Below the pieces are notes generated by a model that was not told the DNA's origin, ran no database searches, and saw nothing but the letters and a program-made list of their open reading frames with translations. Below are positions 28,113 to 62,498 of a stretch of 64,000 nt of DNA, piece by piece (position 1 is the stretch's first letter; the number at the start of each line of letters is the position of its first letter). The stretch is from Flectonema sp. DT1601 (Eukaryota; Euglenozoa; Diplonemea; Diplonemida; Diplonemidae). The translations under genes and the position numbers were made by a program. The DNA is taken from contig OZ025826.1 of NCBI GenBank assembly GCA_964019425.1, positions 310,001 through 374,000 on the forward strand. The letters are read 5' to 3'.

Positions 28113-28705
28113 ATTTTCCGTCCTGGTCAAGACGCTAAACTGATTGTTTTTTTCTTTAAAAAATAAATAAAAAGAATAAAAAAAAAATAAAAAAAAAGGA
28201 ATAAACAATTTTATCATTGTTTTTTTTTATCGATCGACTATGTCGATCACTTTCTATTTTCCGTCCTGGTCAAGACGCTAAACTGATTGTTTTTTCTTTA
28301 AAAAATATTAAAAAGGATTTAAAAAAAAAAAAAAAAAAAAAAAAGAGTAAACAATGTTATCATTGTTTTTTTATCGATCGACTATGTCGATCACTTTCTA
28401 TTTTCCGTCCTGGTCAGGACGCTAAACTGATTGTTTTTTCTTTAAAAATAAATAAAAAGAATAAAAAAAAAAAAAGGAATAAACAATGTTATCATGGTTT
28501 TTTTTATCGATCGACTATGTCGATTACTTTCTATTTTCCGTCCTGGTCAAGACGCTAAACTGATTGTTTTTTCTTTAAAAAATAATAAAAAGGATTAAAA
28601 AAAAAAAAAAAAAAAAAGAATAAACAATGTTATCATTGTTTTTTTTATCGATCGACTTTGTCGACTAATTTCTATTTTCCGTTTTTTTTTTCTTTAAAAA
28701 ATAAA
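28113..28705 (+). repeat. B minisatellite array, forward orientation
   Basis: About five units of 110-135 bp. Each holds three inverted repeats: ACAATG-TTAT-CATTGT, GATCGAC-TAT-GTCGATC and CGTCCTG-GTC-AAGACG (or the perfect CGTCCTG-GT-CAGGACG), then CTAAACTGATTG and A/T runs. The units differ mainly in homopolymer length. Confidence 0.9.
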
Positions 28706-29984
28706 GGGAAAACCTCTAATTCCACGTAAATGTTACTGAAATGTCCGATTTCAACATGAAAGTTTCCGAAATGGACAGCTCCACACAAAATAGTTTCCGA
28801 AATGGACAGCTCCACACACGAAAGTTTCCGAAATGGACAGCAAAAAAAAAAAAAAAAATTTTGTTGGCAAAAAAAAAAATGAATTTTTTTTTTTTTTTTT
28901 CTCCGTTGCCTGCACCCAAAAAAACTTTTCGCTAGTGAACAACTTTTTTTTTCCCGCATAAAATTGCTATGGTAGGTAATTTCATTTTCGCTGTTCAGTA
29001 AACGGAAAGGTTTTTCTTTCGCTATTCACTGAAAGTGATATTCGGATTTTTCGCTGTTCGGTAAGAAAACAAGGTTTTTCTTCGTTCCCAAATACACCGG
29101 GATGGCCGAGATGGGTTGGTTCTCAATGAGGGAAGGAGTAATTTAAGGTAAAGCAAGTGCTGTAATTACAACTAATACGTGCAGGGCCTGAATCAACCTC
29201 TTAGTACTCCCTTTTCAACAGGTGACATAATAATATATACTAGTAGCTCGCTAATCAAGTGAAAGTTAGTAGCGGATTAGTTCGGCTGATTGAATCTTTA
29301 GAAAAGTGTTCCGTGGGCTACTTTCACAGAAACTCCGAAAGGACAGTACTGTGTGGCTCAGTGAGGTGATCTCAGACTTGAGAACACTAAATGGTTTCGC
29401 CACTCCACAGCTATTCATGTCAAGCCCTAGGCCGCTGATCATGTACACTTGGTTTTTGCGCTCTCATACCTCATCTTGGTTGGTACGACGTGTAGCGGAG
29501 ACTTGTCTCTGCGTAGGTGACCCGGCCCTGCACACATACCGAGCTGTATCACTCTTCTAAAGATTCATGATGTTGGATTTCTCTTGTCTCCTATCTGACG
29601 CTTGTGATGCACCTCTAGTATTTTAATACACTCTGAATTCTCATGGTTGTATGAGCTGACATGTCGGGTGTCTCTACCCGAAATTCGTCCATCCCTATAC
29701 CTGGCCCTGCACACATACCGAGCTATGCCGATCCAGGGGCGCAGTCAGGCCCAGGCCCAGGTCACACAGGTTCGGTGTATTTCACTCATCTCGACGGATG
29801 GCCTTGCCTTACGTAGGAAAAAAAAATTTTTTTGGGAGAAAAAAAAATCCCCATGACTTTGGGCGACCCTGAAATGCACTGGCAGTAAGCTATAAAAAAA
29901 AAAAAAACAGCTGTCCATTTCGGAAACTTTCATGTTGAGATCGGACATTTCAGAAACTTTTTTGTGGAATTATAGTTTTTCCCA
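28706..29984. mobile_element. Non-autonomous Mutator-like element (MULE-3)
   Basis: Long inverted ends of about 75 bp start GGGAAAACCTCTAATTCCAC on the left and GGGAAAAACTATAATTCCAC on the right strand; both contain CATGAAAGTTTCCGAAATGG. The flanking 9 bp are identical (AAAAATAAA at 28697-28705 and 29985-29993), the target duplication length of MULEs. The interior has no transposase. It contains a tRNA 5'-half-like stretch (GGGATGGCCGAGATGG, about 29100) and two copies of GGCCCTGCACACATACCGAG (29524 and 29703). Confidence 0.85.
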
Positions 29985-30169
29985 AAAATAAATAAAAAGA
30001 ATTTCAAAAAAAAAAAAAAGAATAAACAATGTTATCATTGTTTTTTTATCGATCGACTATGTCGATCACTTTCTATTTTCCGTCCTGGTCAAGACGCTAA
30101 ACTGATTGTTTTTTCTTTAAAAAATAATAAAAAAGATTAGGAAAAAAAAGAAAAAAAAAAAAAAAAAAA
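29985..30169 (+). repeat. B minisatellite, forward orientation (continuation right of MULE-3)
   Basis: One and a half units continuing the array interrupted by MULE-3, ending in an A run where a repeat A fragment begins. Confidence 0.85.
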
Positions 30170-30239
30170 GACCAGAAGAGGAAGAGAAAATGAAAAGGTA
30201 TAATATTATTGTGGGGATATGAGGGATAGCAGGGAGATG

Positions 30240-30242: not shown

Positions 30243-30273
<31 letters not shown>

Positions 30274-30615
30274 CTTTTAATTATTTTAAAGAAAAAACAA
30301 TCAGTTTAGCGTCTTGACCAGGACAGAAAATAGAAAGTAATCGACATAGTCGATCGATAAAAAGAAACAATGATAACATTGTTTATTCCTTTTTTTTTTT
30401 TTTTTTTTTTTTCATTCTTTTTATTTATTTTTAGAGAAAAAACAATCAGTTTAGCGTCCTGACCAGGACGGAAAATAGAAAGTAATCGACATAGTCGATC
30501 GATAAAAAAACAATGATAACATTGTTTATTCTTTTTTTTTATTTTTTTTATATTCTTTTTTATTAATTTTGAAAAAAAAAAAACAATCAGTTTAGCGTCT
30601 TGACCAGGACGGAAA
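30243..30615 (-). repeat. B minisatellite array, reverse orientation
   Basis: Three units in the orientation opposite to 28.1-30.2 kb, starting with a T run after GATGCTC and ending at GGACGGAAA, where repeat A copy 1 begins. Confidence 0.9.
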
Positions 30616-31016
30616 GCTGAATTTCGATAAAGTGGGAAGTAACGGACTGGGAGCTTTTGGCTCCTGCCCTATTCCCGATGTAAACTTTCTTTTTTTTTTT
30701 TTTTTTTTTTAACAGGCCCAAAGGGCGACAATGATGGTTGCTGACCAAGGAATAATATTCAAATGAATTTTCGTTTCAAAGAAACGAACAGAATTAAGAG
30801 AGAGGCAGAGAAAAAAAAAAAAAGAAAGAAAAGAAAAAAAAATATGAAGAGGAAATAATCAAACATGAAAAAATAAAAAAAAAAAAAAATAAAATATAAA
30901 TAAAAAACGTTGTATGAAAAAGGAAAAAAAAGAAAAAAAAAAAAAAAAACCAGAAAAGGAAAGAGAAGATGAAAAGGTATAATATTATTGTGGGGATATG
31001 AGGATAGCAGGGAAAT

Positions 31017-31020
<4 letters not shown>
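30616..31020 (+). repeat. Dispersed repeat A, copy 1
   Basis: Starts GCTGAATTTCGATAAAGTGG; contains GGGAGCTTTTGGCTCC (a perfect inverted repeat), a T run ending AACAGGCCCAAAGGGC, TTCGTTTCAAAGAAACGAA (another inverted repeat), purine-rich A runs, AACGTTGTATG and a 3' end ATGCTC followed by a T run and a B array. Full-length copies are about 400-420 bp. No coding capacity. Confidence 0.85.
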
Positions 31021-31048
<28 letters not shown>

Positions 31049-31384
31049 ATTTATTATTTAAAAAAAAGGAAACAATCAGTTTAGCGTCTCGATCAGGACG
31101 GAAAATAGAAAGTGATCGACATAGTCGATCGATAAAAAAACAATAATAACATTGTTTATTCTTTTTTTTTATTTATTTTAAATTCTTTTTATTTATTTTT
31201 TAAAGGAAAAAAAAAAAACGGAAAATAGAAATTAGTCGACAAAGTCGAACGATAAAAAAAAACAATGATAACATTGTTTATTCTTTTTTTTTTGTATTTT
31301 TTTTTATTCTTTTTATTAATTTTGAAAAAAAAAAAAAAAACAATCAGTTTAGCGTCTTGACCAGGACGGAAAATAGAAAGTGAT
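31021..31384 (-). repeat. B minisatellite array, reverse orientation
   Basis: About three units, including one short unit that lacks the CAATCAGTTTAGCG...GGA block, bounded by repeat A on both sides. Confidence 0.9.
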
Positions 31385-31791
31385 CTGAATTTCGATAAAG
31401 TGGGAAGTAACGGACTGGGAGCTTTTGGCTCCTGCCCTATTCCCGATGTAAACTTTCTTTTTATTTTTTTTTTTTTTTTTTAAACAGGCCCAAAGGGCGA
31501 CAATGATGGTTGCTGACCAAGGAATAATATTCAAATGAATTTTCGTTTCAAAGAAACGAACAGAATTGAGAGAGAGGCAGAGAAAAAAAAAAAAAAAAAA
31601 AAGAAAGAATAGAAAAAAAAAATATGAAGAGGAAATAATCAAACATGAAAAAAAAAAAAAAAAAAAAAATATATAAATAAAAAACGTTGTATGAAAAAGG
31701 AAAAAAAGAAAAAAAAAAGACCAGAAAAGGAAAGAGAAAATGAAAAGGTATAATATTATTGTGGGGATATGAGGATAGCAGGGAGATGCTC
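31385..31791 (+). repeat. Dispersed repeat A, copy 2
   Basis: Near-identical to copy 1, again followed directly by a reverse-orientation B array. This copy is the left outer arm of the mirror structure discussed in the findings. Confidence 0.85.
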
Positions 31792-31905
31792 TTTTTTTTT
31801 TTTTTTTTTTTTTTTTTATTTATTATTTAAAAAAAAGGAAACAATCAGTTTAGCGTCTCGATCAGGACGGAAAATAGAAAAAATAGTCGATCGATAAAAA
31901 AACAA
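31792..31905 (-). repeat. B minisatellite, reverse orientation, interrupted by MULE-1
   Basis: One unit. MULE-1 inserted into its AAAAAACAA tract, which is duplicated on the other side (34418-34426), after which the unit resumes with TGATAACATTG. Confidence 0.9.
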
Positions 31906-32137
31906 GGGAAAACCTCTAATTCAACAAAAATAGTTTGCGAAATCGCCAACTCCCTACAAAAAAAAGTTATCCACCAGGACTCGAACTTGACCCGAAAAAT
32001 TGACCATCGGCCGAAATATTAGGGAAAAAAGTTACCGCACCGGGACTCGAACTTGACAGATTTTTTTAAAAAAAAAAATTCTTAATTTTTATTACAAAGT
32101 TTTTTTGTTGCAGCTTTCCACAAAAAAAAATTAAAAG

Positions 32138-34072
32138 ATGCCTGCTACTACTTATGCTGTTGGAGACTACTTCCGCACACAGGAAGAACTGATCCAGACT
32201 GTGTTTCGGGTGAACACTGTGCTAGGACACAGCTGCAGGGTGCAGAGAAGGTGCCCCACGTACCTCACCCTCGCCTGTCCAAACGACGAATGCCAATGGA
32301 CGGTGAAGGCAAAGGTGGTGGAGGGGGAGTGCCGCGTGACGAAGGTGGAGAGTCACACTTGCGCACCTGGGGAAGCGAGGCGGGGCTGCGATGGCACGTC
32401 GGACTGGATTTCCAGTATTTTGGAAGAGAAGGTAGCCAGTCAGTTTGACTACGGGCCGAAACAAGCGGCAATTGACTTAAAGTCATTCCGCGACGTTGCG
32501 GTCCCCAAAAAGACTGTGGAGAGGGGTCTGGAGAAGGCCAAGGAGAAGGTCCACGGGTTGATGGGCGAGCAGTACGGCCTGATAGCACCGTACCTCACCG
32601 ACCTCCAACAGCGCAACAGCCAGATGTACTGGAACATCGAGAAGAGAGATGATGGTGCTTTTGAGAGGGTGTTTTGGTCTTTTGTGAGGCCAGAAACAGC
32701 TGAGCACCTGGCACCTGTCATCTGCAGCGATGCATGCAGTCTGACGGGTCCGTTTGGTGGGTGCTTGTTCATCACCGTGGGGATCGACGCCGAAAGGCAT
32801 GTTATGCCTTTAGCCTACTCGGTTGGAGTGGTCGAAAACCACGAGGGATGGGCATACCACCACACCCACCTGAAGAACCATTTTGGCGACCGACTGAAAA
32901 GGTTCGTCTTGATTTCCGACAGGCAGAAGGGGCTGGAGTCCGACACCTCCCTGCACGGAGTCGTGTTGCACCATGCTTTGTGCGTGCAGCACTTGGTTGG
33001 CAACGTGGCCAGCCAGACGAAGATACCGAAGGTTGATGCGACATTGTTAGTGTGGAAGATTAGCAAGCTAAGCATCGAAACAGAGGCCGAGACGTGCCTT
33101 CAAGGGATAAAGGACAAGTACGGAAAACGTGCCCATCGTTATCTGCTTAAGTCAAACCTTGAAAGGTGGTCAGACGCTTACTGGCCTTCGGGTGTCCCCA
33201 GATGCAACACCTACACCTCCAACGCGTCGGAATGCGTCAACGCCGTGTTCAAGGAGACTCGGCAAGGGAGTCTTTTATCTGTGATAAAGGACACCCGTTG
33301 TTGGACAACGGACACCTACGCCAGCCGACGCGAGATGCATGCTGACGTTCCTGCGAACTATCCGGTTCCGACAGTGGAGTTGTTCGTTCGGGGGAGTGCC
33401 ACCTCAGCAAACAACCATGCTGTCACACCACTGGGTGAAGGACAATGGGAAGTACGACGAGAACACGGGTGGTTGGTGTGTCTGAAAGATGGAACATTAG
33501 TGTGTGGCTGTCCTGATTTCCTCCGCCACAACCTACCTTGCATCCACACAGTCAGAGTATTGACACATCAGCGCAATAATGTCTTTACTCACGAAACCTC
33601 TTTGCCTCCCTACACCAGAATGAGCAGCTACAGAGAGCTCTACCGCGTCTCTGTGTACCCACAGGCGATACCTACCGGACAGCTTCAATTCGACGGCACG
33701 AAACCCCCTGTTGTGCAGAAGGGTGTCGGGAGAAGAAGAAAGGTTCGGATTCGCTCCAACGGTGAATCAAGGACCCTGACGTGCTCCAACTGCGACGCTA
33801 AAGGTCACAACAAACGAAGTTGTCGGAAACCAACCTCGCAATCATCAAAGCCAGCAGCAAAGCCAGCAGCGAAGAAAGCAGCAGCAAAGCCAGCAGCAAA
33901 GCCAGCAGCAAAGCCAGCAGCAAAGCCAGCAGCAAAGACAGTCAAGAAGAAGCGAAAGCGATGTGAATCCTCTGATTCGGACTCACAATCTTTAAGTGCA
34001 CAGTCATCCTACTCATCTTACTCAACTTCAACGACAGAGTCTTACTCAACTTCAACGACAGATTCTGACTGA
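32138..34072 (+). CDS. MULE transposase with FAR1-like, SWIM and CCHC zinc fingers
   Basis: 644 aa from ATG 32138. The N-terminal finger (residues about 32-80: CPTYLTLACPNDECQWTVKA ... ESHTC) resembles the FAR1/WRKY-GCM1 type of MuDR proteins. The MULE catalytic core is at about 190-320: first Asp in VICSDACSLTG, second in FVLISDRQKGLE, then the conserved HALCVQHL helix. A SWIM finger follows (CGCPDFLRHNLPCIHTVRV, about 450) and a zinc knuckle (CSNCDAKGHNKRSC, about 548). The tail has a KPAAKPAAK-type basic repeat, a KKKRKR nuclear-localisation-like cluster and a Ser/Thr-rich end. It would bind the inverted ends and carry out cut-and-paste transposition in the nucleus. Length and domain order are complete for the family. 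Confidence 0.92.
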   Translation: MPATTYAVGDYFRTQEELIQTVFRVNTVLGHSCRVQRRCPTYLTLACPNDECQWTVKAKVVEGECRVTKVESHTCAPGEARRGCDGTSDWISSILEEKVASQFDYGPKQAAIDLKSFRDVAVPKKTVERGLEKAKEKVHGLMGEQYGLIAPYLTDLQQRNSQMYWNIEKRDDGAFERVFWSFVRPETAEHLAPVICSDACSLTGPFGGCLFITVGIDAERHVMPLAYSVGVVENHEGWAYHHTHLKNHFGDRLKRFVLISDRQKGLESDTSLHGVVLHHALCVQHLVGNVASQTKIPKVDATLLVWKISKLSIETEAETCLQGIKDKYGKRAHRYLLKSNLERWSDAYWPSGVPRCNTYTSNASECVNAVFKETRQGSLLSVIKDTRCWTTDTYASRREMHADVPANYPVPTVELFVRGSATSANNHAVTPLGEGQWEVRREHGWLVCLKDGTLVCGCPDFLRHNLPCIHTVRVLTHQRNNVFTHETSLPPYTRMSSYRELYRVSVYPQAIPTGQLQFDGTKPPVVQKGVGRRRKVRIRSNGESRTLTCSNCDAKGHNKRSCRKPTSQSSKPAAKPAAKKAAAKPAAKPAAKPAAKPAAKTVKKKRKRCESSDSDSQSLSAQSSYSSYSTSTTESYSTSTTDSD

Positions 34073-34234
34073 CTTACTGGCCACTGACTTGTTCAACAAT
34101 GTTTATCCCTCTCTAAAAAGAAAACTCTGATTGCCATATGCATGTGTTTTGACACTTTTGCCACGTCTGGTCTTATTTTGAATTGCCTTTGTCACGCTCT
34201 CTTTTTCCATCAGGTTTTGGGTAAAAAAAAAAAA

Positions 34235-34307
34235 GGTCGTATCGGGATTCGAGCCGGGTACCTCTGGGATATAAGGTGGAGGTACTACCTCTCGACTAAC
34301 GGGTCGC
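34235..34307 (-). repeat. tRNA-like (Pol III promoter-like) module inside MULE-1
   Basis: On the minus strand, TAGTCGAGAGG fits the A-box consensus and GGCTCGAATCC differs from the B-box consensus at one base; a T run follows. The acceptor and T stems do not pair, so this is not a working tRNA but a tRNA-derived or SINE-like piece. Confidence 0.55.
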
Positions 34308-34417
34308 TGTAAAAAAAAGTTTTTTCCCTCTTTTTATTCATATCGGGGTGGGACGTTTTTTTTTTGTGATGAGTTGGCGATTTCGCAAACTATTTTTGTG
34401 GAATTAGGGGTTTTCCC

Positions 34418-35265
34418 AAAAAACAATGATAACATTGTTTATTCTTTTTTTTTTTTTTAAATTCTTTTTATTTATTTTTTTTTTTTTAAAGAAAAAAATG
34501 GAAAATAGAAATTAGTCGACAAAGTCGAACGATAAAAAAAACAATGATAACATTGTTTATTCTATTTTTTTATTTTATTTTTTTCTATTCATTTTTATTG
34601 ATTTTGAAAAAAAAAAAAAAAACAATCAGTTTAGCGTCTTGACCAGGACGGAAAATAGAAAGTGATCGACATAGTCGATCGATAAAAAAACAATGATAAC
34701 ATTGTTTATTCTTTTTTTTTTATTTTAAATTCTTTTTATTTATTTTTTAAAGAAAAAAAACGGAAAATAGAAATTAGTCAACAAAGTCGAACGATAAAAA
34801 AAACAATGATAACATTGTTTATTCTTTTTTTTGTATTTTTTTTATATTCTTTTTTATTAATTTTGAAAAAAAAAACAATCAGTTTAGCGTCTTGACCAGG
34901 ACGGAAAATAGAAAGTAATCGACATAGTCGATCGATAAAAAAACAATGATAACATTGTTTATTCTTTTTTTTTTATTTTAAATTCTTTTTATTTATTTTT
35001 TAAAGAAAAAAAACGGAAAATAGAAATTAGTCGACAAAGTCGAACGATAAAAAAAAAAACAATGATAACATTGGTTATTCTTTTTTTTATTTTTTTTTAT
35101 ATTCTTTTTTTTTTTTTTTTATTAATTTTGAAAAAAAAAAACAATCAGTTTAGCGTCTTGACCAGGACGGAAAATAGAAAGTAATCGACATAGTCGATCG
35201 ATAAAAAAAACAATGATAACATTGTTTATTCTTTTTTTTATTTTAAATTCTTTTTATTTATTTTT
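34418..35265 (-). repeat. B minisatellite array, reverse orientation, alternating long and short units
   Basis: Alternates long units (with CAATCAGTTTAGCGTC...GGACGG) and short units (missing that block and carrying GTCGACAAAGTCGAAC in place of the perfect GTCGAT stem), making a dimer period of about 240 bp. Confidence 0.9.
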
Positions 35266-35555
35266 GGGAAAACCTCTAATTCAACAAAAATAGTTTGCGA
35301 AATCGCCAACTCCCTACAAAAAAAAGTTGTCCACCAGGACTCGAACTTGACCCAAAGATTTGGCTTGCGGCGGGTTTTTTGTTTTTTAGCCTACCAAGCT
35401 GGGAAGAGTGCAAGGGTGGCTTGCGTCGGTTTTATTTATCGTCGGCCAAATTCTTGGCGGGACGCAAGCCCCCCCCCAACCCCCCAAGGGGGGGGAGCCG
35501 CTAATAAAAGCCTGCCTGTTCCGTACAAAGTCCAACCTGAAAAAACAAATTTGCA

Positions 35556-35960
35556 ACTGATGACTCTCTTAGGGTAGCCAAATGCCTCGTCTTCTAATTA
35601 AAGATGCGCATGAATGGACTGATGAGATTCCTTCTGTCCCTACCTACTATCTGGCGAACAGCAGTCAAGGGAACGGACTTGAAACTGTCAGCGGGGAAAG
35701 AAGACCCTGTTGAGTTTGACTCTAGTCGGGTGTAGTTATAGGTGGGAGGTTTACCAACAATGAAATACCACTACTCTTATCGTCGCTTTACTTATCCAAT
35801 GATGGGGGAACGGCAGCTGCCTCTTCGGAGGTTAGGGTCCTTTCGGATTTCGAAACTCGTAGCTTTTCCGATTCCAGCGACAAACGGGCTTCGGCTCGAC
35901 CGACTCGTTTGGAGACACCAGTCAGGTGGGGGGTTTGGCTGGGAGGAGGGCCACATTGAC
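35556..35960 (+). rRNA. LSU (28S-type) rRNA fragment, captured
   Basis: Recognisable blocks in the conserved order of domain IV: ACTCTCTTAGGGTAGCCAAA (consensus CTCTTAAGGTAGC, the R2 target region), TGCCTCGTCTTCTAATTA, GCGCATGAATGGA, GAGATTCC...TGTCCCTACCTACTAT, AAGGGAACGG, CAGCGGGGAAAGAAGACCCT, GTTGAGTTTGACTCTAGTC, AGGTGGGAG, TGAAATACCACTACTCTTAT and CAGGTGGGGGGTTTGGCTGG. It is a partial, probably degraded copy inside MULE-2, not a working rRNA gene. Beyond about 35960 similarity becomes doubtful. Confidence 0.85.
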
Positions 35961-36283
35961 GAAGGCTTCTAAGTCACGAACCTAAATCGATGATGAGGAT
36001 CGTTAAGCCACATTTCTAAAGGTCAAGCTTTTACTATGGTTCGAATGTGTCTGACAAAAATTACCTAATTTGGAATGCTGCTTGAAGTCTGGTGAATTTT
36101 GGTTGGAGGTCTTAGTCTCACTGGTGAACTGCACAGTAACATTTTAAAGTGATCGATCACACGGGAGGGGTCTTGGTGATTTATTGCAACGGGAATATGT
36201 CTCAACTCGACCAGTGGGTGATGAATCCGCCCTTTGACTATGTTTTGGTCACATTTTCCGTCATTACGAAAAAGAGAAAAAAA

Positions 36284-36358
36284 GGATGTCACGGGGTTCG
36301 AACCCGAGACCTCCGGGTCATGGTTCGGCGGTCATAACCAGTAGACCACCGGAGCTCC
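36284..36358 (-). repeat. tRNA-like module inside MULE-2
   Basis: On the minus strand: TGGTCTACTGG (A-box-like), a CCGCC...GGAGG arm, a perfect B box GGTTCGAACCC, then a T run. The acceptor ends (GGAGCTC and GACATCC) do not pair. A very similar 50-60-bp stretch recurs in an unrelated element at 61228-61283, so it is a shared tRNA-derived module. Confidence 0.6.
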
Positions 36359-36466
36359 GAAAATTCTGAAAGTTTTCCCGTCATGTTGGGTTGTTTCGAG
36401 CGGTTAAAATTTTTGTGATGAGTTGGCGATTTCGCAAACTATTTTTGTGGAATTAGGGGTTTTCCC

Positions 36467-36793
36467 TTTATTTTTTAAAGAAAAAAATGGAAAATAGAAA
36501 TTAGTCGACAAAGTCGAACGATAAAAAAAAAAAAAACAATGATAACATTGTTTATTCTATTTTTATTTTTTTTTTTATATTCTTTTTTATTAATTTTGTT
36601 TTTTTTTTTTTTTTTTTTTTTTTAATCCCTTTTTATTATTTCAAAGAAAAAACAATCAGTTTAGCGTCTTGACCAGGACGGAAAATAGAAAGTGATCGAC
36701 ATAGTCGATCGATAAAAAAAAACAATGATAACATTGTTTACTCTTTTATAATTTTTTTTATTTTTTTATTTGTTTTTAAAAAAGAAAAAGAAA
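36467..36793 (-). repeat. B minisatellite array, reverse orientation, abutting E
   Basis: Two units right of MULE-2, the last grading into an AT-rich stretch that resembles, in inverted form, the start of the right-hand B array at 58560. Confidence 0.85.
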
Positions 36794-37084
36794 ACAAGCG
36801 GAATTGATCATAATGGGTGGTAGGGGTTGTTATAACTTCGTTTGAAAATTCTTCTTTTTTGATTTCTTTTTTTTTTTTTTCTTTTTATAGGAGTTAAGAT
36901 CACTTCAGGAGACAACACATAAACGAGAGCAGCAAGCAGAGTTGACACTATCAATTCAAATTTGAAATACCGGGAATTTATTTACAAGGAGGTATCTCAA
37001 GTGACTTGGTATCTCTAGCGTGTCGGTATCTCTGGAGTGCTGGTATCTCGTATGTGCGTTGGTATCTCATGAGTGATGGTACGA
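36794..37084 (+). repeat. Subterminal sequence E (left arm) with GGTATCTC iterons
   Basis: Begins ACAAGCGGAATTGATCATAA and continues through GGAGTTAAGATCACTT to five GGTATCTC motifs spaced 17-20 bp (36990-37070). Its inverted counterpart E' is at 58158-58501. The order of the distinguishing spacers (…GTGTCGGTATCTC, GTGCTGGTATCTCG, TATGTGCGTTGGTATCTC) is the same in both arms. Confidence 0.85.
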
Positions 37085-40047: not shown

Positions 40048-40084
40048 ACTCTCTCTTGTGCATTGGAGAAACGAAAAAGGACAA

Positions 40085-47871: not shown

Positions 47872-47906
<35 letters not shown>

Positions 47907-48020: not shown

Positions 48021-48056
<36 letters not shown>

Positions 48057-48427: not shown

Positions 48428-48465
<38 letters not shown>

Positions 48466-48862: not shown

Positions 48863-48899
<37 letters not shown>

Positions 48900-52400: not shown

Positions 52401-52729
52401 TACTCATTGCCAATGGTTCTTCTTCCTCCCCGGCCCCTTCTTTTTTGTTAGATGAGGATGAGCTCACTGGACTCTCCTTGTCATTCTCTTCTATTTCTTC
52501 CATCTCTCTCCAGAATTCCCCACCTGAACTCATGTCAACGGGATCGCAAACACTTCCTGCTGATTTCGCTATAGTGATAAGAAGTCAATCTGACATGGGT
52601 TCCCAAACCCCATTGTACAATAAAAAAGAAGGAAGATTAAGGCTGAAACTTTCCTTGAAATGCCAGATTTTAGAAAACGAACTAGAACAAATGAAAGAAC
52701 GAATGTTTTATGTTCTATTTTTATTTTGA
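49476..52729 (+). CDS. LINE2 reverse transcriptase with CCHC and RLE endonuclease
   Basis: The frame is open upstream of the first ATG (49511), reading NAVKWKEARTR. RT motifs: KNKCAPGPNCIPYVVWK; TRPIAVGNCDGKIFNT; TIVWVDLADAFGSVKH (first Asp); GVFQGCVSSPTLFNLV; LVAAFADDLQLTT (FADD catalytic pair); GEFKYLGRWF. Then a CCHC knuckle with the signature C-x2-C...H-x4-C (CVLCGKVNPTLRHVLTGC) and QGRFTWRHDSVLKR, typical of R2-group proteins. The endonuclease has RPDIFIYSFFAKRALILELT followed by KEKKYLKLRDSI (PD-(D/E)XK-type). The enzyme would nick DNA and prime reverse transcription at the target. No stop interrupts 1,080 codons. Confidence 0.92.
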
Positions 52730-52731
52730 GT

Positions 52732-53664
52732 TGAATTTACCAGGTGAGATTTGGACTGTTAGCTTTTGGCTAAGGCCCTCCCTGAAGAGCAAGAACAAAA
52801 AAACTACTCACACCTGAAGAAAACATACACAAAGAACACACTGTAAGCTGTGTGTGTATTTTGTGTTTGTCACAACAGGAGAGAAAAGAAAGAATGTCAA
52901 GGTTGGTCACCTTGCCTATCAACGCACAACATTGGTGGTCTCTACTAGACCCTGAGTGATCCCACTGGATCTCTCATCGTTCATAGTACCCTGTGTGAAG
53001 TTATAAAATCAAAGGTAAACTATGAACTACAAATGACTTAGCCTGTTATTATAATGCCACAGGCAGGCCCTGCATTCAGCAACTATCCAGCAGTGCTTGG
53101 ATGTCCTGATCTTCTTCTAAAAAAAAGAAAGAAAAACAAAACTGTAGCTGGGATCACTCAGGATCAACAGACTACCAATGCTACCTGTTGTACTTGCTCA
53201 CTATGGGGGGTGATGCCAAACACCCAGAAGTACTAAACTGCTTTCCTTCTTGCTGCCCAGGGGTTTCTGACCAGAACTAATAGAAAATAAAAAGTAGATG
53301 GGAAACAATAAAAAGTAAAATGCATATAACTGAAGTTAAACAAGACAAATGAAGTAACAGACCAGAACAGAAAGAGGATTGTAATAGAAGATTACAAATA
53401 AACAAATGCAAGTATCAACACATAATCAAGATACACCAGCAGCTAACAAACAACATAAAATTGAAGATCAGTTGCCAGAGTATTTCAACCATGGTAGAAT
53501 ACTCGCCCCTCTGGCAGGGATTATCCCAGACTTGTCCTTTAATTTAGTTGGACACCATGGCTTACAACCCTTCCAGAGAGGGAAGCACCATTATGACTTC
53601 TATTTTTTTTCTTCAAGAAAATCATAAGGTGGGAACAAAGAAAAATGCTAAGAGGAACCCCTTA
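52732..53664. mobile_element. LTR-like element C, reverse orientation, truncated, inside LINE2
   Basis: One terminal repeat (52732-52983) and part of the internal segment, in the opposite orientation to the other C copies. It lies exactly between the RT-endonuclease frame and the coiled-coil segment of LINE2. Confidence 0.65.
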
Positions 53665-54825
53665 TACTTTAATGCGATGTCAGCCTCCCTTGAGAATGAC
53701 AAGCAGCTACTGAATGGATTGTCTATTGAGAACAAAGCATCCAAACAACGGGCCGCCGAGAGTGTATCTCACAGCCCACTCCCTTTAAATCTATCCGCAC
53801 CCCCATCTGTCTTTAACGTAGAAACGGAACAGAAAAAACGTGAACTATTGGAAAAAGAGAATCAACACCTGATCGCTGAATGTGATTTAGTGAAAAGTTC
53901 TCTTCTCTCATTAGTTCAAAGAACTAACTCTCTGGAGGAAAAAAGGACGAGCGAGCTGGCGCGACAATCACAAAGAGCGGACCACGCTGAAATGTTTTAT
54001 TTCAACTTACAACAAAGGTTCATTCTATTAAACAATGAATTAGAATCTAAGTGTAGGGATGAAACTGGAACAAAAATTCAACTCTATTTGTCTCAACAAG
54101 AGGTCGCAACATTGCGTGCTGGCCCTCAACTGTCCCATTTTTCCCAACAATTTTCCCCAACACCCCCTTTTTTATTCGAATCAACGTCCACGGTAAAGAA
54201 TTATCGACTCCCTCTCATCGCAACAACCTATTACTCCTGGACTCCCAAACCCCGTCTTTCCTTTTTTTTTAAACCTCATTCTCCATTGATCACGTTCCCT
54301 TCTGAACTGTCTCAAAGTAGACTACTGGTATCGTCTTCTGCTCAAACGGAACAAGAAAAAGACAGTGCGGCGACCTCATCGACGGAAGATTCACCTATTG
54401 CGAGGCAATGGTCCGAAGGTAGACTCGATTTACTGGACAACTACTGTCAAGCGGTAAGTGACTCTCTCCAGACAAATGAGAAAGTGGCGCTGCTCTCGGA
54501 AAAACTAGTGGAAGAGCAACGTCGATGCTCCGAGTTGAGCTATCAACAGAAGACTATCCATAAAGAACAACTGGATCATTCCATGTTGTTGATGGAGATG
54601 GCCAGTGAGCTCTCTGAGCAACTCTATTTGGCAAAAGACCAAAACAGAGCTCTCAAATTTCAGTTACAAACATGGGCAAATGGTTTTAACCCACCCGAAA
54701 AGGAAGCGCAAGAAGAAAATGAGACCCCAAAGCGTCCGAGGGAGCGCCTATCACAAAAAAAGCGAACTCCACCCTCAACGAATCCTCATGATCGCAGAAG
54801 AATCTTTTTAGATGACGATTGCTAA
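53665..54825 (+). CDS. Coiled-coil C-terminal segment of LINE2 (or separate small protein)
   Basis: Open for about 387 codons from the C element border (YFNAMSASLENDKQLLNG) to the stop after RRIFLDDDC. Two long heptad-patterned stretches (EQKKRELLEKENQHLIAECD; VALLSEKLVEEQRRCSELSY) flank a Pro/Phe/Ser-rich middle; the tail is basic with a KKRTPP cluster. The RT frame just before the C element also ends in heptads (LKCQILENELEQMKERMF), which suggests one protein with a coiled-coil extension that C later split. It is unlike the C-termini of R2 proteins I know. A host gene fragment is the alternative. Confidence 0.6.
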   Translation, partial: YFNAMSASLENDKQLLNGLSIENKASKQRAAESVSHSPLPLNLSAPPSVFNVETEQKKRELLEKENQHLIAECDLVKSSLLSLVQRTNSLEEKRTSELARQSQRADHAEMFYFNLQQRFILLNNELESKCRDETGTKIQLYLSQQEVATLRAGPQLSHFSQQFSPTPPFLFESTSTVKNYRLPLIATTYYSWTPKPRLSFFFKPHSPLITFPSELSQSRLLVSSSAQTEQEKDSAATSSTEDSPIARQWSEGRLDLLDNYCQAVSDSLQTNEKVALLSEKLVEEQRRCSELSYQQKTIHKEQLDHSMLLMEMASELSEQLYLAKDQNRALKFQLQTWANGFNPPEKEAQEENETPKRPRERLSQKKRTPPSTNPHDRRRIFLDDDC

Positions 54826-55137
54826 GTTCTAGTTTCTATTAGTATTAAATTATTTGTATTATTTTGTCGATATGTTTATGTCTGTCCGATCATAACGTCA
54901 ATCAGATTAATTGTTAATTGTAATTGGTTTGAGCGCTTATCAAAAAAAAAAAAAAAGCGAACTCCAACCTCAACGAACTTTCATGATCGCAGAAGAATCT
55001 TTTTAGATGACGATTGCTAAGTTCTAGTTTCTATTAGTATTTATTTATTTGTATTATTTTGTCGATATGTTTATGTCCGTCAGATCATAACGTTAATCAG
55101 ATTAATTGTCAACTGTTAATTGTAAATGGTCTAAACC
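54756..55137 (+). repeat. Tandem duplication of the LINE2 3' end
   Basis: Two copies offset by 195 bp (A run, GCGAACTCCA, CATGATCGCAGAAGAATC, GATGACGATTGCTAAG, then an AT-rich 3' UTR). The second starts after an A run of about 15, as if the 3' end had been reverse transcribed twice or a second truncated copy had landed in the tail. Confidence 0.75.
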
Positions 55138-57137
55138 GTACAACAGGTAGCATTGGTAGTCTGTTGATCCTGAGTGATCCCAGCTACAGTTTTGTTTTTC
55201 TTTCTTTTTTTTAGAAGAAGATCAGGACATTCAAGCACTGCTGGATAGTTGCTGAATGCAGGGCCTGCCTGTGGCATTATAATAACAGGCTAAGTCATTT
55301 GTAGTTCATAGTTTACCTTTGATTTTATAACTTCACATAGGGTATTATGAACGATGAGAGATCCAGTGGGATCACTCAGGGTCTAGTAGAGACCACCAAT
55401 GTTGTGCGTTGATAGGCAAGGTGACCAACCTTGACATTCTTTCTTTTCTCTCCTGTTGTGACAAACACAAAATACACACACAGCTTACAGTGTGTTCTTT
55501 GTGTATGTTTTCTTCAGGTGTGAGTAGTTTTTTTGTTCTTGCTCTTCAGGGAGGGCCTTAGCCAAAAGCTAACAGTCCAAATCTCACCTGGTAAACTCAA
55601 CTCAGTCTTTGTCAGTATTGGCATCAAACCTGTAATGGTTACATTAACTACCATTTCAACAGGTTATTTACTGAAATATTTGTTCTAAAAGTTGCTAAGT
55701 ATCTCTCACTTAGAAATTTTTTTATTTTTTTATTTTCAGCTCAATTAGCTACAAAGTGTTTCTACTAAGTGTTTCTCACTTAGATTTTTTTTTTTGCTTT
55801 TCAGCTCCTTAAAAGCTGCTAAGTATTTCTGCTAAGTGTTTCTCACTTAGAATCTTATTGTTATGTTCGTTTTCTATCCCTTCTCCTATCCCTTTTGTTC
55901 AAAAAAAGCGGGAGGAAATTCTCTCATTCATGCTAAGATGCACTCTGAACTTTGATTTTTTGATCTGAGTGTGAGGGAATGACCTGTTAGTGCATTGGGC
56001 ATAAGCTGGGCTGCAGTTTAGATGTCTTAGGTGTTAATAAGGGGTTCCTCTTAGCATTTTTCTTTGTTACCACCTTATGATTTTCTTGAAGAAAAAAAAT
56101 AGAAGTCATAATGGTGCTTCCCTCTGGAAGGGTTGTAAGCCATGGTGTCCAACTAAATTAAAGGACAAGTCTGGGATAATCCCTGCCAGAGGGGCGAGTA
56201 TTCTACCATGGTTGAAATACTCTGGCAACTGATCTTCAATTTTATGTTGTTTGTTAGCTGCTGGTGTATCTCGATCATGTGTTGATACTTGCATTTTTTT
56301 TTTATTTGTAATCTTTTACTACAATAACTCTTGCAATTATCTTTTCTTTTTTATTCTCTATCTGTTCTGGTCTGTTTCTTCATTTTTTTACATTAATAAT
56401 TACATTTTGTTCAAAAAGAAAAAAAAAGAAAAAAGATTTCATATTAGAAACTAGGAAACTAGGTTAACACCTAGTTAAAATTAAGACCGGTTAGTCAGTT
56501 TAAGGTCTTGTCTAGGACCAACATTCTTGTTTAACTTCAGTTATATTCATTTTACTTTTTATTGTTTCCCATCTGTTTTTATTTTCTATTAGTTCTGGTC
56601 AGAAACCCCTGGGCAGCAAGAAGGAAAGCAGTTTAGTACTTCTGGGTGTTTGGCATCACCCCCCATAGTGAGCAAGTACAACAGGTAGCATTGGTAGTCT
56701 GTTGATCCTGAGTGATCCCAGCTACAGTTTTGTTTTTCTTTCTTTTTTTTAGAAGAAGATCAGGACATTCAAGCACTGCTGGATAGTTGCTGAATGCAGG
56801 GCCTGCCTGTGGCATTATAATAACAGGCTAAGTCATTTGTAGTTCATAGTTTACCTTTGATTTTATAACTTCACATAGGGTATTATGAACGATGAGAGAT
56901 CCAGTGGGATCACTCAGGGTCTAGTAGAGACCACCAATGTTGTGCGTTGATAGGCAAGGTGACCAACCTTGACATTCTTTCTTTTCTCTCCTGTTGTGAC
57001 AAACACAAAATACACACACAGCTTACAGTGTGTTCTTTGTGTATGTTTTCTTCAGGTGTGAGTAGTTTTTTTGTTCTTGCTCTTCAGGGAGGGCCTTAGC
57101 CAAAAGCTAACAGTCCAAATCTCACCTGGTAAACTCA
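55138..57137. mobile_element. LTR-like element C, more diverged copy with a nested D-related insert
   Basis: A partial internal segment, a terminal repeat (from 55348), an internal segment and a second terminal repeat (56886-57137). The period is 1,538 bp because about 140 bp of D-related sequence (about 56384-56524) sits in the internal part. It differs from the other copies at more positions, so it is older. Confidence 0.65.
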
Positions 57138-57380
57138 ACTCAATCCAAGTTCCCAAGGCTTGGCATAGATTTGAGTGACGCCTTACTGGCCTCCTCATCC
57201 TCTATGAGTGGTGAGGGGGCCAGCAATGGTTTTTTTTTTTTTTCTCTTATTTCTTTTTTTCTTTTTCTTTTACTCTAATATGAAATATTTTTGAACAAAA
57301 TGTGATTATTAATTTAAAAAAAAAAAAAAAAAAATGTAAATGAATAATAAAAAAAAAAAAAAAAAAAAACATGCCTTGGG
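57138..57380. other. Short spacer with A/T runs
   Basis: Begins with GC-moderate unique sequence (57140-57230), then T-rich and A-rich runs. CTAATATGAAATATTTTTGAA near 57271 is the inverse of a stretch in the D insert at 56.4 kb. No gene. Confidence 0.4.
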
Positions 57381-57960
57381 AATACAACCAAAGCCCCAAT
57401 TAATCGGTCCTTTCTTTTTTCCTTCTTGTCAAGTGATCGCTCCACTCGTCGATCACCAAAACCGATTGTATTTATATCTGTTCTTTTCTCAACGATCGGC
57501 TATACCGATCATTTTTTTTTAAAAATAATTGTTTTCTTCTTCTCGACGATCAGATCCAATTGATCGACCTTTTCTTTTTTTTCCTTTATTCCTTCCATCC
57601 CTCCCGCTCCCCTTATTTTAATAAAAACAAGATCAGCTCAGCTTGATCGTTAAACTTTTTTTATTTATTTATTTTTTTTTTTTTATTTAAACTGATTGTA
57701 TTTATATCTGGTTATTTTTCTCAACGATCGGCTATGCCGATCGACCTTTAAAATAATTGTCTTCTTCTTCTCGACGACCAGATCCAATTGATCGACCTTT
57801 TCTTTTTTTTTTCCTTTATTCCTTCCATCCCTCCCGCTCCCCTTATTTTAATAAAAACAAGATCAGCTCAGCTTGATCGTTATTTATTTATTTATTTATT
57901 TTTTTTTTTTTGTTGGTCCTAGTCAAGACCTTAAACTGACTAATCGGTCTTAACTTTAAC
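57381..57960 (+). repeat. Hairpin satellite D, about two units, related in design to B
   Basis: Two tandem units of about 230-250 bp (57460-57655 and 57690-57885) with inverted repeats GATCGGC-TAT-GCCGATC, GATCAGATCCAATTGATC, GATCAGCTCAGCTTGATC and, at the end, GGTCCTAGTCAAGACC followed by TTAAACTGACTAATCGGTC. T-rich spacers lie between. Layout and loops match B while stem bases differ in pairs. Confidence 0.8.
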
Positions 57961-57984
57961 TAAGTGAATGAACCCTTCCCGTTT

Positions 57985-58125
57985 TCCTTTTCCCTTTATT
58001 ACTCTCTATCTGGTCTGTTATGTCATAAATCTCATATAATTTTATCATTCATTTTAATTTTCACTGTTTCCCATCTACATTTTATTTTCAAATAGTTCCG
58101 GTCTGTCTCTGAGGTTAAATAAAAC
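57985..58125. repeat. Diverged fragment of element C internal sequence
   Basis: TGGTCTGTTATGTCAT..., TTTCCCATCTAC and ATAGTTCCGGTC match the C internal segment (for example 38060-38160) at reduced identity. An old fragment. Confidence 0.55.
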
Positions 58126-58157
58126 TGATCATGTTAACTCAATATTTTTTTTTATTA

Positions 58158-58501
58158 TGTGCAAGAGATACCAACACGCAAGAGATACCAACGCACATAC
58201 GAGATACCAGCACTTCCGAGATACCGACACACAAGAGATACCAAGACACTTAAGATACCAGCAAGGACAGTGAGAGGTAGAATGAACTCTCCTCCTTGTG
58301 TCCGATCCTGATTATTTTTTGTTGAATTGGTAGTGTTACCTCAGTTTGCGACTCTCGTATCTGTGTTGTGTTAACTCATGTAAGTGATCTTAACTCCTGT
58401 TAAATAAAAAAAAAATTTCAAAAAAAAGAAATTAAAAAAGAAGAATTTTCAAATGAAGTTATATCAACCCCTGCCACCCATTATGATCAATTCCGCTTGT
58501 T
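58158..58501 (-). repeat. Subterminal sequence E' (right arm), inverted, with GGTATCTC iterons
   Basis: Inverse of E: six GAGATACC/AAGATACC motifs (58165-58265), then sequence ending ATGATCAATTCCGCTTGT at 58501. Identity with E is high in the first 110 bp from the outer end and in the iterons, lower between. Confidence 0.85.
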
Positions 58502-58559
58502 TTTTTTTTTTTTTTTTTCTTCTTTCTTTTCTTCAAATATAAAAAAAAATTAAAAAATA

Positions 58560-61012
58560 TAAAAGATGAAACAATGTTATCATTGTTTTTTTTATCGATC
58601 GACTATGTCGATTACTTCCAGTTTTCCGTCCTGGTCAAGACGCTAAACTGATTGTTTTTTTTTTTTTTTTAAAAAATTAATAAAAAGAATATAAAAAAAA
58701 AAAAAAAAGAATAAACAATGTTATCATTGTTTTTTTTTATCGTTCGACTTTGTCGACTAATTTCTATTTTCCGTTTCTTTTCTTTAAATAATAAATAAAA
58801 AGAATTTAAAATAAAAAAAAAGAATAAACAATGTTATCATTGTTTTTTTATCGATCGACTATGTCGATTACTTTCTATTTTCCGTCCTGGTCAAGACGCT
58901 AAACTGATTGTTTTTTTTCAAAATTAATAAAAAAGAATATAAAAAAAAAAAAAAAAAAAAAAAAGAATAAACAATGTTATCATTGTTTTTTTTTATCGTT
59001 CGACTTTGTTGACTAATTTCTATTTTCCGTTTTTTTTCTTTAAAAAATAAATAAAAAGAATTTAAAATAAAAAAAAAGAATAAACAATGTTATCATTGTT
59101 TTTTTATCGATCGACTATGTCGATCACTTTCTATTTTCCGTCCTGGTCAAGACGCTAAACTGATTGTTTTTTTTTCAAAATTAATAAAAAAGAATATAAA
59201 AAAAAAAAAAAAAAAAGAATAAACAATGTTATCATTGTTTTTTTTTTATCGTTCGACTTTGTCGACTAATTTCTATTTTCCGTTTCTTTTCTTTAAAGAA
59301 TAAATAAAAAGAATTTAAAATAAAAAAAAAGAATAAACAATGTTATCATTGTTTTTTTATCGATCGACTATGTCGATCACTTTCTATTTTCCGTCCTGGT
59401 CAAGACGCTAAACTGATTGTTTTTTTTTTTTTTCAAAATTAATAAAAAGAATAAAAAAAAAAAAAAAAAAGGAAAAACAATGTTATCATTGTTTTTTTTT
59501 ATCGTTCGACTTTGTCGACTAATTTCTATTTTCCGTTTCTTTTCTTTAAAGAATAAATAAAAAGAATTTAAAATAAAAAAAAAGAATAAACAATGTTATC
59601 ATTGTTTTTTTTATCGATCGACTATGTCGATCACTTTCTATTTTCCGTCCTGGTCAAGACGCTAAACTGATTGTTTTTTTTTTCAAAATTAATAAAAAAG
59701 AATATTAAAAAAAATACAAAAAAAAAAAGAATAAACAATGTTATCATTGTTTTTTTTTTATCGTTCGACTTTGTCGACTAATTTCTATTTTCCGTTTTTT
59801 TTCTTTAAAAAATAAATAAAAAGAATTTAAAATAAAAAAAAAAAAAAAAAGAATAAACAATGTTATCATTGTTTTTTTTTATCGTTCGACTTTGTTGACT
59901 AATTTCTATTTTCCGTTTTTTTTTCTTTAAAAAATAAATAAAAAGAATTTAAAAAAAAAAAAAAAAAAAAAAGAATAAACAATGTTATCATTGTTTTTTT
60001 TATCGATCGACTATGTCGATTACTTTCTATTTTGCGTCCTGGTCAAGACGCTAAACTGATTGTTTTTTTTTTCAAAATTAATAAAAAAGAATATAAAAAA
60101 ATACAAAAAAAAGAATAAACAATGTTATCATTGTTTTTTTTATCGATCAACTATGTCGATTACTTTCTATTTTCCGTCCTGGTCAAGACGCTAAACTGAT
60201 TGTTTTTTTTTCAAAATAAAAAAATATTAAAAAAAAAAAATAAAAAAAAAGAATAAACAATGTTATCATTGTTTTTTTTTATCGTTCGACTTTGTTGACT
60301 AATTTCTATTTTCCGTTTTTTTTTCTTTAAAAAATAAATAAAAAGAATTTAAAAAAAAAAAAAAAAAAAAAAGAATAAACAATGTTATCATTGTTTTTTT
60401 TATCGATCGACTATGTCGATTACTTTCTATTTTGCGTCCTGGTCAAGACGCTAAACTGATTGTTTTTTTTTTCAAAATTAATAAAAAAGAATATAAAAAA
60501 ATACAAAAAAAAGAATAAACAATGTTATCATTGTTTTTTTTATCGATCGACTATGTCGATTACTTTCTATTTTCCGTCCTGGTCAAGACGCTAAACTGAT
60601 TGTTTTTTTTTCAAAATTAATAAAAAAGAATATAAAAAAATACAAAAAAAAAGAATAAACAATGTTATCATTGTTTTTTTTATCGTTCGACTTTGTCGAC
60701 TAATTTCTATTTTCCGTTTTTTTTCTTTAAAAAATAAATAAAAAGAATTTAAAATAAAAAGAAAAAGAATAAACAATGTTATCATTGTTTTTTTTATCGA
60801 TCGACTATGTCGATTACTTTCTATTTTCCGTCCTGGTCAAGACGCTAAACTGATTGTTTTTTTTTTCAAAATTAATAAAAAAGAATATAAAAATAATAAA
60901 AAAAAAAAGAATAAACAATGTTATCATTGTTTTTTTTTATCGTTCGACTTTGTTGACTAATTTCTATTTTCCATTTTTTTTCTTTTTAAAAATAAAAAAA
61001 AAGAATTAAAAT
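58560..61012 (+). repeat. Large B array, forward orientation, long/short alternation
   Basis: About 19 units. From 58.6 to 59.8 kb long and short units alternate strictly (dimer of about 245 bp). From 59.88 to 60.55 kb a block of about 400 bp is repeated nearly exactly; both copies share the variant TTTTGCGTCCTGG (60031 and 60431). Confidence 0.9.
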
Positions 61013-61782
61013 CATAGATGGAAGTGCCCTACAATTTGGAGGGCGTGTAGGGCGCTTGTAGGGCGCTTTTAATATAAATATTATTTTGGAGGGCGCTTTT
61101 TTTTACCTTTTTTATTACTATAAGACAGCTAAATTGACGTCGACTTACACTGACGCACAAGTATTTTGACGCAGAAGCCAAAAATTTTTTTTGACATGCT
61201 TGGCAGTCTTTCGAAAAAGAGAAAAAAGGGTGTCACGGGGTTCGAACCCGAGACCTCCAGGTCATGGTTCGGAGGTCAACAATGGCAAAAACAATGGGCC
61301 ACTCCTTGAGAGCTTCCGGAGCCTGCTACAATCCCTGAAGCTGAAACTCATTTCAGTGGACGATGCATCCCAGATCTACAAGGAGCTGATTAGCCCGCAG
61401 AATGCACCGAGTCGAATATAGAGGGATTCGAGGAGGGAGAGTGCGTTCTTGCTAACCTGTTAATAGGCCGGTCTTCACGGTACCTTGTGAGAAAAAAAAG
61501 AAGTTTACTGGTGGCAAGTAAACTGATATCCCAGAGACGCATTTGATCGGGCGAACCGGAGAAAAGTCAAATAAGATGCGATTCGACCCTCGCTGAGGGC
61601 AGGGGTGTGTCAAAATGAGCTCGGCATTATATTAAATTTAATTAAAAAAGCGCCCTACGCGACCTCCAGCGCCCTATTTTGGCCCTACAATGGCCCTACA
61701 ATGGCCCTATTTTGGCCCTACAAATTTTTGTGGCTGATTTTCACCAGGCGCCCTCCAAATTTGGAGGGCACTTCCATCTATG
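61013..61782. mobile_element. Non-autonomous inverted-repeat element (CATAGATGG ends)
   Basis: Ends CATAGATGGAAGTGCCCT on both strands, then AGGGCG-rich blocks. The flanking TAAAAT is identical on both sides (61007-61012, 61783-61788), inside a B spacer. The interior has a tRNA-like module (61228-61283), tandem GGCCCTACAA/GGCCCTATTTT motifs (61678-61725), and a GC-richer stretch that may be captured host DNA (61290-61420). No transposase. The superfamily is not certain. Confidence 0.75.
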
Positions 61783-61788
61783 TAAAAT

Positions 61789-62498
61789 AAAAAAAAAAAA
61801 AAAAGAATAAACAATGTTATCATTGTTTTTTTTATCGATCGACTATGTCGATTACTTTCTATTTTCCGTCCTGGTCAAGACGCTAAACTGATTGTTTTTT
61901 TTTTCAAAATTAATAAAAAAGAATATAAAAATAATAAAAAAAAAAAGAATAAACAATGTTATCATTGTTTTTTTTTATCGTTCGACTTTGTTGACTAATT
62001 TCTATTTTCCATTTTTTTTCTTTTTAAAAATAAAAAAAAAGAATTAAAATAAAAAAAAAAAAAAAAGAATAAACAATGTTATCATTGTTTTTTTTATCGA
62101 TCGACTATGTCGATTACTTTCTATTTTCCGTCCTGGTCAGGACGCTAAACTGATTGTTTTTTCTTTAAAAATAAATAAAAAGAATAAAAAAAAAAAAAAA
62201 AAGGAATAAACAATGTTATCATTGTTTTTTTTTTATCGATCGACTATGTCGATTACTTACTATTTTCCGTCCTGGTCAAGACGCTAAACTGATTGTTTTT
62301 TCTTTAAAATAATTAAAAAGATTTAAAAAAAAAAAAAAAAAAAAAAAATGAATAAACAATGTTATCATTGTTTTTTTTTCTATCGATCAACTATGTCGAT
62401 TAATTAATTTCTATTTTCCGTCCTGATCGAGACGCTAAACTGATTGTTTCCTTTTTTTAAATAATAAATAAGAAAAAAAAAAAAAAAAAAAAAAAAAA
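61789..62498 (+). repeat. B array, forward orientation, right of the inverted-repeat element
   Basis: Five units; the last carries the CGTCCTGATCGAGACG variant also seen at the matching place in the left arm (31070-31100 and 31855-31870), next to repeat A. Confidence 0.9.

Follow-up and report, generated by a model that had tools for sequence, protein, structure and literature searches.

Hairpin-bearing repeats B and D of a diplonemid genome as probable 3' UTR modules of one young R2-like retrotransposon

Elements of the R2 superclade and R2-like elements without site specificity, such as BLAG, have one long open reading frame (ORF) with N-terminal zinc-finger-like motifs, a reverse transcriptase, a CCHC motif, and a restriction-like endonuclease (PMC7650587; this and the other papers cited are drawn on in part). 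An element of the same plan is described here from the diplonemid Flectonema sp. DT1601. It lies in a window of 64,000 nucleotides, the whole stretch of DNA that was analysed (bases 310001-374000 of contig OZ025826.1, forward strand; GenBank assembly GCA_964019425.1, 89.5 Mb in 92 contigs). The element differs from R2 and BLAG, as presented in the parts of that paper used here, in having no fixed insertion site, in a long 3' untranslated region (UTR) with arrays of two repeats, D and B, and in a C-terminal extension of several hundred residues past the endonuclease motifs. It is likened to them by best matches and motifs, not by a tree. A sequence-only reading of the window had treated B and D as separate satellites with related hairpins. 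That separation did not hold up. Probably, B and D are diverged modules of tandem repeats, both carried in the 3' UTR of a single young R2-like retrotransposon of the class without long terminal repeats (non-LTR), in a diplonemid host.

MoTeR and FoTeR are likewise restriction-like endonuclease elements with variable tandem repeats, and MoTeR1 has its largest array near the 3' end (PMC12857005). They differ in being fungal and telomere-associated, the FoTeR arrays are mostly 5', and the units given there are unlike the hairpins of B and D. Ogre/PisTR-A, HeT-A, and the common cetacean satellite are further cases of satellite-like arrays from the 3' end of a retroelement (PMC9659126). Ogre is an LTR element, whereas the B and D arrays still sit within a young element of the non-LTR class. 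The variable-number tandem repeats (VNTRs) of SVA and LAVA are also ordered arrays within a retrotransposon, with conserved end units and remodelling at the DNA level (PMC4432496). SVA and LAVA differ in that they are non-autonomous, belong to primates, and have their GC-rich VNTR in a central position. The first diplonemid nuclear genome was reported in 2023 (PMC10161547). That paper, on Diplonema papillatum, mentions reverse transcriptases of R2 and SLACS as well as numerous dispersed repeats, with nothing like B or D in the parts used here. No description of the element or its hairpin arrays was found in open-access titles and abstract starts; subscription papers and preprints lay outside the search.

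The ORF upstream of D in the window contains an RVT_1 domain (E 6.4e-26) and a zf-RVT domain in a domain search. Its closest solved relatives are R2 proteins (9nl2, E 7.4e-33), with LINE-1 ORF2 behind (2e-20 to 1e-19). CCHC-RHD and E-RPD-E restriction-like endonuclease motifs were located by pattern search. The endonuclease pattern came from PMC12857005 and was widened by one residue at two spacers (11 for 9-10, 8 for 9-21). Four intact 5' regions were fetched (L045-L048), and in the one that was translated, CxxC...H...C motifs, named zinc-finger-like by the analyst, lie near the N-terminus. In L043 (5595-9998, minus strand), the ORF extends several hundred residues past the endonuclease motifs and includes a stretch that looks coiled-coil-like by eye. 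The distance to D was measured in four loci. The long ORF has the same sense as D and stops ~420 bp (L027) or 567-570 bp (L043, L033, L025) before it. Genome-wide, 43 of 854 candidate ORF copies were scored. All are 99-100% identical across the whole query. In 35 the frame spans 1750-1770 codons, and one of the 35 is broken by a stop. The family is considered young because its ORF copies are near-identical and mostly retain long frames.

The order of the element is ORF, two D units, linker, B array, a usually distinct terminal B unit, poly-A, and a 3' segment, S', with a terminal hairpin. D, 575 bp long, is dispersed. Of 577 candidate copies, 40 were scored, and the 39 other scored copies are 97-99% identical. 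It is made up of two units of ~230 bp. Twenty D loci of 10 kb were fetched, and the window is the 21st. A B array in the same orientation follows D in 16 of these 21, and in 13 the distance from the D start to the first B unit is 1206-1236 bp. The alignment to L027 is continuous from ~340 bp upstream of D through D in most loci, and into B units in many. The B runs counted comprise 2-31 units, some cut by insertions or by the end of the fetched stretch. B and D are therefore read as 3' UTR repeats: D stands behind the reverse transcriptase ORF, B behind D, and the S' end behind B. Satellite DNA independent of a mobile element was not what the sampled loci contained, as B and D occupy fixed element positions there; pure arrays were not surveyed genome-wide. 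A second subfamily carries D at ~87-90% identity (L035:1-1140, L036:2393-2953). In L035, D has grown to about five 212-bp units, which shows that it, too, can expand.

S' terminates at CGAAATTC or a near form, and the sequences beyond it differ. Of 31 listed 3'-end rows, one was empty and 29 were usable. The flanks varied at these 29 ends, which excludes a single target site. A fixed target for the element was rejected on this ground, and the single ribosomal DNA site of the R2 superclade proper was likewise not found. Spliced-leader targeting, as in CRE/SLACS, was considered against the same varied flanks; the host spliced-leader gene was not located. The hairpin GGAGC-CAAAA-GCTCC is retained at 28 of the 29 ends. 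An S' start is present within 560 bp at 14 ends, with a B unit directly upstream in all 14. At the other 15, none was found within 560 bp (one source starts too close to tell). The terminal B unit usually has its own forms of two hairpins described below (H1 GATCAAC...GTCGATT and H2 CCTGATCGAGACG) and is followed by poly-A and S'. A script placed the B-unit end 50-68 bp upstream of the S' start in 16 of 19 cases; L031 was added as a 17th by eye, and two were without. Copies cut to S', or to B plus S', have the look of non-LTR retrotransposon copies truncated at the 5' end. Folding of the S' end gives z -2.65 for the sense strand and -1.31 for the antisense. Its hairpin would be the best candidate for recognition by the reverse transcriptase, ahead of the B or D hairpins.

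B is composed of two unit types, frequently alternating, with spacings of ~145 and 111 bp. The type 1 unit has three hairpins: hairpin 0 (H0), AACAATG-TTAT-CATTGTT; hairpin 1 (H1), GATCGAC-TAT-GTCGATC or a form ending in GATT; and hairpin 2 (H2), CGTCCTGGTCAAGACG. The sequence-only reading had named these H1 and H2 sequences, and both recur throughout the B arrays. The type 2 unit is shorter, has H0 and a damaged H1 (GTTCGAC-TTT-GTCGACT and relatives), and is without H2. A Hamming scan found 465 B units, 461 of which passed a spacer filter (280 of type 1 with H2, 176 of type 2, and 5 excluded from the pair tables). Across the assembly, there are about 10,000 H1 forms with up to two mismatches, D forms included, and 675 within one mismatch of the D form. 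In D, each unit has an H1 homologue, and a single H2 homologue stands at the end of the segment. The element copy in the window is laid out as follows.

45530-63689, plus strand: one retrotransposon copy, nested insertions included; start ~45530, 5' marker at 45545 as in L045-L048, 3' end CGAAATTC at 63682-63689
46190-46754, plus strand: ORF part with zinc-finger-like motif, in a frame matching intact copies, interrupted by the next insertion
46755-49472, minus strand: nested reverse copy of this element, truncated at its 5' end (S' 46755-47157, B array 47158-49459), absent from intact copies
49473-52726, plus strand: ORF part with reverse transcriptase, zf-RVT, CCHC-RHD, and E-RPD-E endonuclease motifs
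52727-53578, minus strand: repeat E1 within the ORF
53579-54825, plus strand: ORF part, C-terminal extension
55138-57142 (approximate), plus strand: more E1 copies, between ORF and D
57386-57960, plus strand: D, two ~230-bp units, 3' UTR
57494-57510, plus strand: H1 of the first D unit, GATCGGC-TAT-ACCGATC, inner pair broken
57726-57742, plus strand: H1 of the second D unit, GATCGGC-TAT-GCCGATC, perfect
57915-57930, plus strand: H2 homologue of D, GGTCCTAGTCAAGACC
57961-58568, plus strand: linker with 17-bp repeats of the AAGAGATACCA type
58569-62498, plus strand: B array, 19 units before an insertion near 61.0 kb and further units after it
58597-58613, plus strand: H1 of the first B unit (example)
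58627-58642, plus strand: H2 of the first B unit (example)
62499-63689, plus strand: S', element 3' end, split by an insertion at ~62633-63400
28112-30169, plus strand: B units of another copy, with an insertion at ~28700-29983
30247-36780, minus strand: B units of nested reverse copies, broken by S' copies and a MULE-like element

The array at 47-49 kb lies upstream of the ORF, and B as a 5' UTR promoter array was considered. This was rejected because the four intact 5' regions have no such array; the one in the window belongs to the nested truncated copy.

B and D resemble each other in sequence at their hairpins. The H1 core matches D with a score of 24, while 500 dinucleotide shuffles of D reached at most 20. 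The H2 core with its tail scores 33 against a shuffle maximum of 22, again reached by none of 500. The whole B unit is less clear (score 33, reached by 2 of 500 shuffles). The text downstream is parallel in B and D, as had been claimed, with TAAACTGA common to both. The two hairpins ascribed to D are present, but only the second D unit has the perfect H1; the right arm of the first is ACCGATC. In the sampled loci, this broken form occurs in 20 distinct contexts, with a further break in another 4, and the perfect form in 23. The claim that stem bases change in pairs between B and D is correct for one full pair of H1 and for the outer pair of H2, which differs on both sides. It fails at the inner H2 pair, where G-C becomes A-C, and the H2 arms differ at three bases rather than the two first counted. 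By the analysts' own arithmetic, the chance of one complementary pair is ~0.017 for two random H1 differences on 17 positions and ~0.06 for three H2 differences on 16 positions; both figures are flattering, the comparison having been picked for its look. As hairpins, segments of B and D exceed chance, with folding z of -2.3 to -3.7 on both strands; the exception is D H2 on the sense strand, where the drawn fold is not formed (z -0.56) and the antisense strand gives a different 10-bp stem.

Variation among the B copies falls mostly on one side of H1. Among the 280 type 1 units, the outer pair is G-T in 162, G-C in 113, and A-T in 5. Pair 5 is G-C in 265, A-C in 13, and otherwise in 2, and no remaining pair has more than two departing units. 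In type 2, pair 2 is unpaired in all 176 units (T-C 158, A-C 15, T-T 3), and pair 5 is G-C in 108, G-T in 67, and T-G in 1. Genome-wide, the left arm of pair 5 is changed in 314 copies, and both arms in 2, one pairing and one not. Among the 100 matches listed, the left-arm form is GATCAAC...GTCGATT. At pair 6, C or T against A or G occurs 0 times genome-wide; these are four of the nine possible doubles, and the D form, G-C, is counted separately. Six copies have G-T at this pair, intermediate between the forms of B and D. At pair 7, the search for changes on both sides gave 0. Across 25 distinct H1 variants, one pair shows two-sided change, where 1.0 is expected and 397 of 500 shuffles do as well. 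The percentage paired, the number of two-sided cells, and the covariation score for H1 exceed all 500 shuffles and all slid versions of the hairpin. The covariation tool itself warns that related sequences can exceed shuffles without any structure, and the shuffles keep no relatedness; the count of two-sided pairs is the measure least misled by it. Rows judged non-homologous or reverse-strand were dropped from the alignment by hand (e.g., L012 AATTCAC..., L044 GATCTGC..., a T run, and chance H2-like matches in genes).

H0 and three further hairpins of D give the same picture. H0 shows no two-sided change in 453 copies, of which 422 are identical. For the three D hairpins, 10, 37, and 60 distinct contexts were compared, and none has a two-sided change. 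Stems show no significant deficit of rare variants (15 at 28 stem sites, 28 at 33 other sites, p 0.17). Low variation limits the power of these comparisons, as few double changes are expected either way. Selection on H1 folding is not supported. Since the hairpins mostly mutate on one side, the paired differences that separate B from D argue only weakly for selection on folding.

Several observations weigh against the identification of B and D as decaying UTR modules of one element. The B array was not seen downstream of D in 5 of the 21 loci (L025, L030, L033, L034, L035). The element can be called only putatively active, as that status is read from its sequence. Finally, plain decay does not explain H2, whose 14 distinct variants have two-sided change at 3 of the 7 pairs, where 0.9 is expected. 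This number was reached by 12 of 500 shuffles on the sense strand and 9 of 500 on the antisense strand, and lies above every slid version. The pairs are pair 1 (C-G, G-C), pair 5 (C-G, A-T; mostly C-A), and pair 6 (T-A, C-G, T-G). The A-T form at pair 5 is found in a third homologue, CGTCATGGTCATGAC, in the linker of a second subfamily, in 5 distinct contexts. A pattern covering CGTCATGGTCATGAC occurs 214 times genome-wide, and 2 of the 100 matches listed have CGTCTTGGTCAGGAC instead. In B, pair 5 of H2 is C-A in 253 of the 280 type 1 units. C-A becomes U-G on the antisense strand, where 95.9% of H2 cells pair in the variants, against 81.6% on the sense strand. Over the 280 units, 1940 of 1960 H2 cells pair antisense and 1704 sense. 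The figures for H1 are 1937 of 1960 sense and 1790 antisense. No single strand fits both hairpins, because H1 pairs better on the sense strand and H2 on the antisense strand. The shuffle control for H2 ignores relatedness, and its changes come from D, one linker lineage, and one single unit. The evidence for selection on H2 folding is only suggestive and falls short of proof. The sequence-only reading took the paired changes to imply selection on the folded form, or copying through it. By the count of pairs with two-sided change among distinct variants, H1 is no more two-sided than shuffles, and H2 lies above most of them.

These paired changes might be compensatory, with the hairpins, chiefly H2, selected as RNA or single-stranded DNA structures such as multivalent sites for the reverse transcriptase of the element or for a host factor. 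The two-sided change in H2, the strong local folding of the B and D segments, and the third homologue, in which A-T takes the place of the C-G of some B units, agree with this. Such selection is nonetheless rather unlikely, given that H1, H0, and the three further D hairpins change one side at a time, that H1 and H2 favour opposite strands, and that type 2 units with a broken H1 have spread equally well (176 of 461 units). Paired changes can also arise by template switching during DNA replication, a mechanism reported for RNA hairpins in the parts of PMC8794818 used here. Template switching, or quasi-palindrome correction in DNA replication or reverse transcription, would require no selection, and rare one-step events of this kind predict what is seen, namely paired change confined to the older divergence of B, D, and linker. 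It is a possible but still doubtful explanation of the paired changes, as the six G-T copies at H1 pair 6 indicate that single steps are also available, and thousands of young copies are nearly without corrections, with one pairing double against 314 one-sided changes at pair 5. For the B-D-linker changes themselves, either an old H2 constraint or template switching can account.

Two other accounts put aside folding or the element. The repeats could be GATC-rich palindromic protein sites in DNA, with symmetry maintained by dimer binding. D has 15 GATC sites where 1.76 are expected, B has 20 where 9 are, and part of the ORF has 11 where 11.8 are. As GATC lies in the arms of the hairpins, its excess is not independent evidence. 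Symmetry is lost in the type 2 units, a protein that binds these sites is not known, and the account is improbable. Several of the D hairpins (57386-57960) have GATC in their arms. B could instead be an independent satellite (e.g., centromeric) merely targeted by the retrotransposon. B arrays are clustered in repeat islands, and elements do insert into them. This account is very improbable: B has a fixed position within the element in 13 of 21 copies, all 14 complete S' copies are joined to B, and the 3' flanks of S' vary and are not always B.

If B and D are modules of one 3' UTR, then B, D, and a homologue in the linker would descend from one ancestral module. The length of the array would shift at the DNA level as in a VNTR, retrotransposition would spread it, and together these may be why the B array looks like a satellite. 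Variation within B would be mostly decay and subfamily change irrespective of pairing. The few paired changes would go back to the older divergence and reflect either an earlier constraint on H2 or template-switch correction of a quasi-palindrome.

The window also holds other features. Repeat E1 is present at 37078-40089, 43874-45528, 52727-53578, and 55138-57142, is tandem in places with a period of 1356 bp, and has internal 66-bp repeats with the hairpin CTAAGTG-TTTCT-CACTTAG. The insertion at 62633-63400 inside S' has terminal inverted repeats ATATATCAGTCATTCC and GGAATGACTGATATAT. An ORF at 32138-34072, inside a B array, has a weak match to MULE transposase (27.4 bits, cut-off 27.6), and its surroundings share ends such as GGGAAAACCTCTAATTC. 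A reverse transcriptase ORF (RVT_1) at 40517-41920 on the minus strand belongs to a second retroelement family. At 21665-22567 on the minus strand is a Sof1/DCAF13-like ORF, 73% to Diplonema papillatum, the nearest named relative; a EukProt transcriptome protein is nearer, at 86%. This ORF places the host among the diplonemids. A dinoflagellate or perkinsid host had been considered and was rejected, a spliced-leader pattern having given 0 hits. The only Rfam family at gathering score in the window is a tRNA at 19017-19088, with none for the B and D hairpins. Outside the window, a long ORF upstream of the retrotransposon (L045:2154-3998, minus strand) resembles, as judged only by eye, a pogo-type transposase that carries an additional C-terminal domain.

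What looked like two structured satellites is thus probably one young R2-like retrotransposon of a diplonemid. The case also calls for caution, since a pair of matched differences between the consensuses of two repeats reveals little about selection where copies can be counted by the thousand. There is a slim chance that H2 and its D and linker homologues are a functional module that folds on the antisense strand, as first-strand cDNA or antisense RNA. If so, the tandem H2 copies would be many landing sites in the tail of a retrotransposon, for priming of the second strand or for holding the reverse transcriptase, and copy number would tune activity. The roughly 10,000 H1 forms in the assembly are a natural system for asking whether tandem tail hairpins affect the mobility of a retrotransposon.

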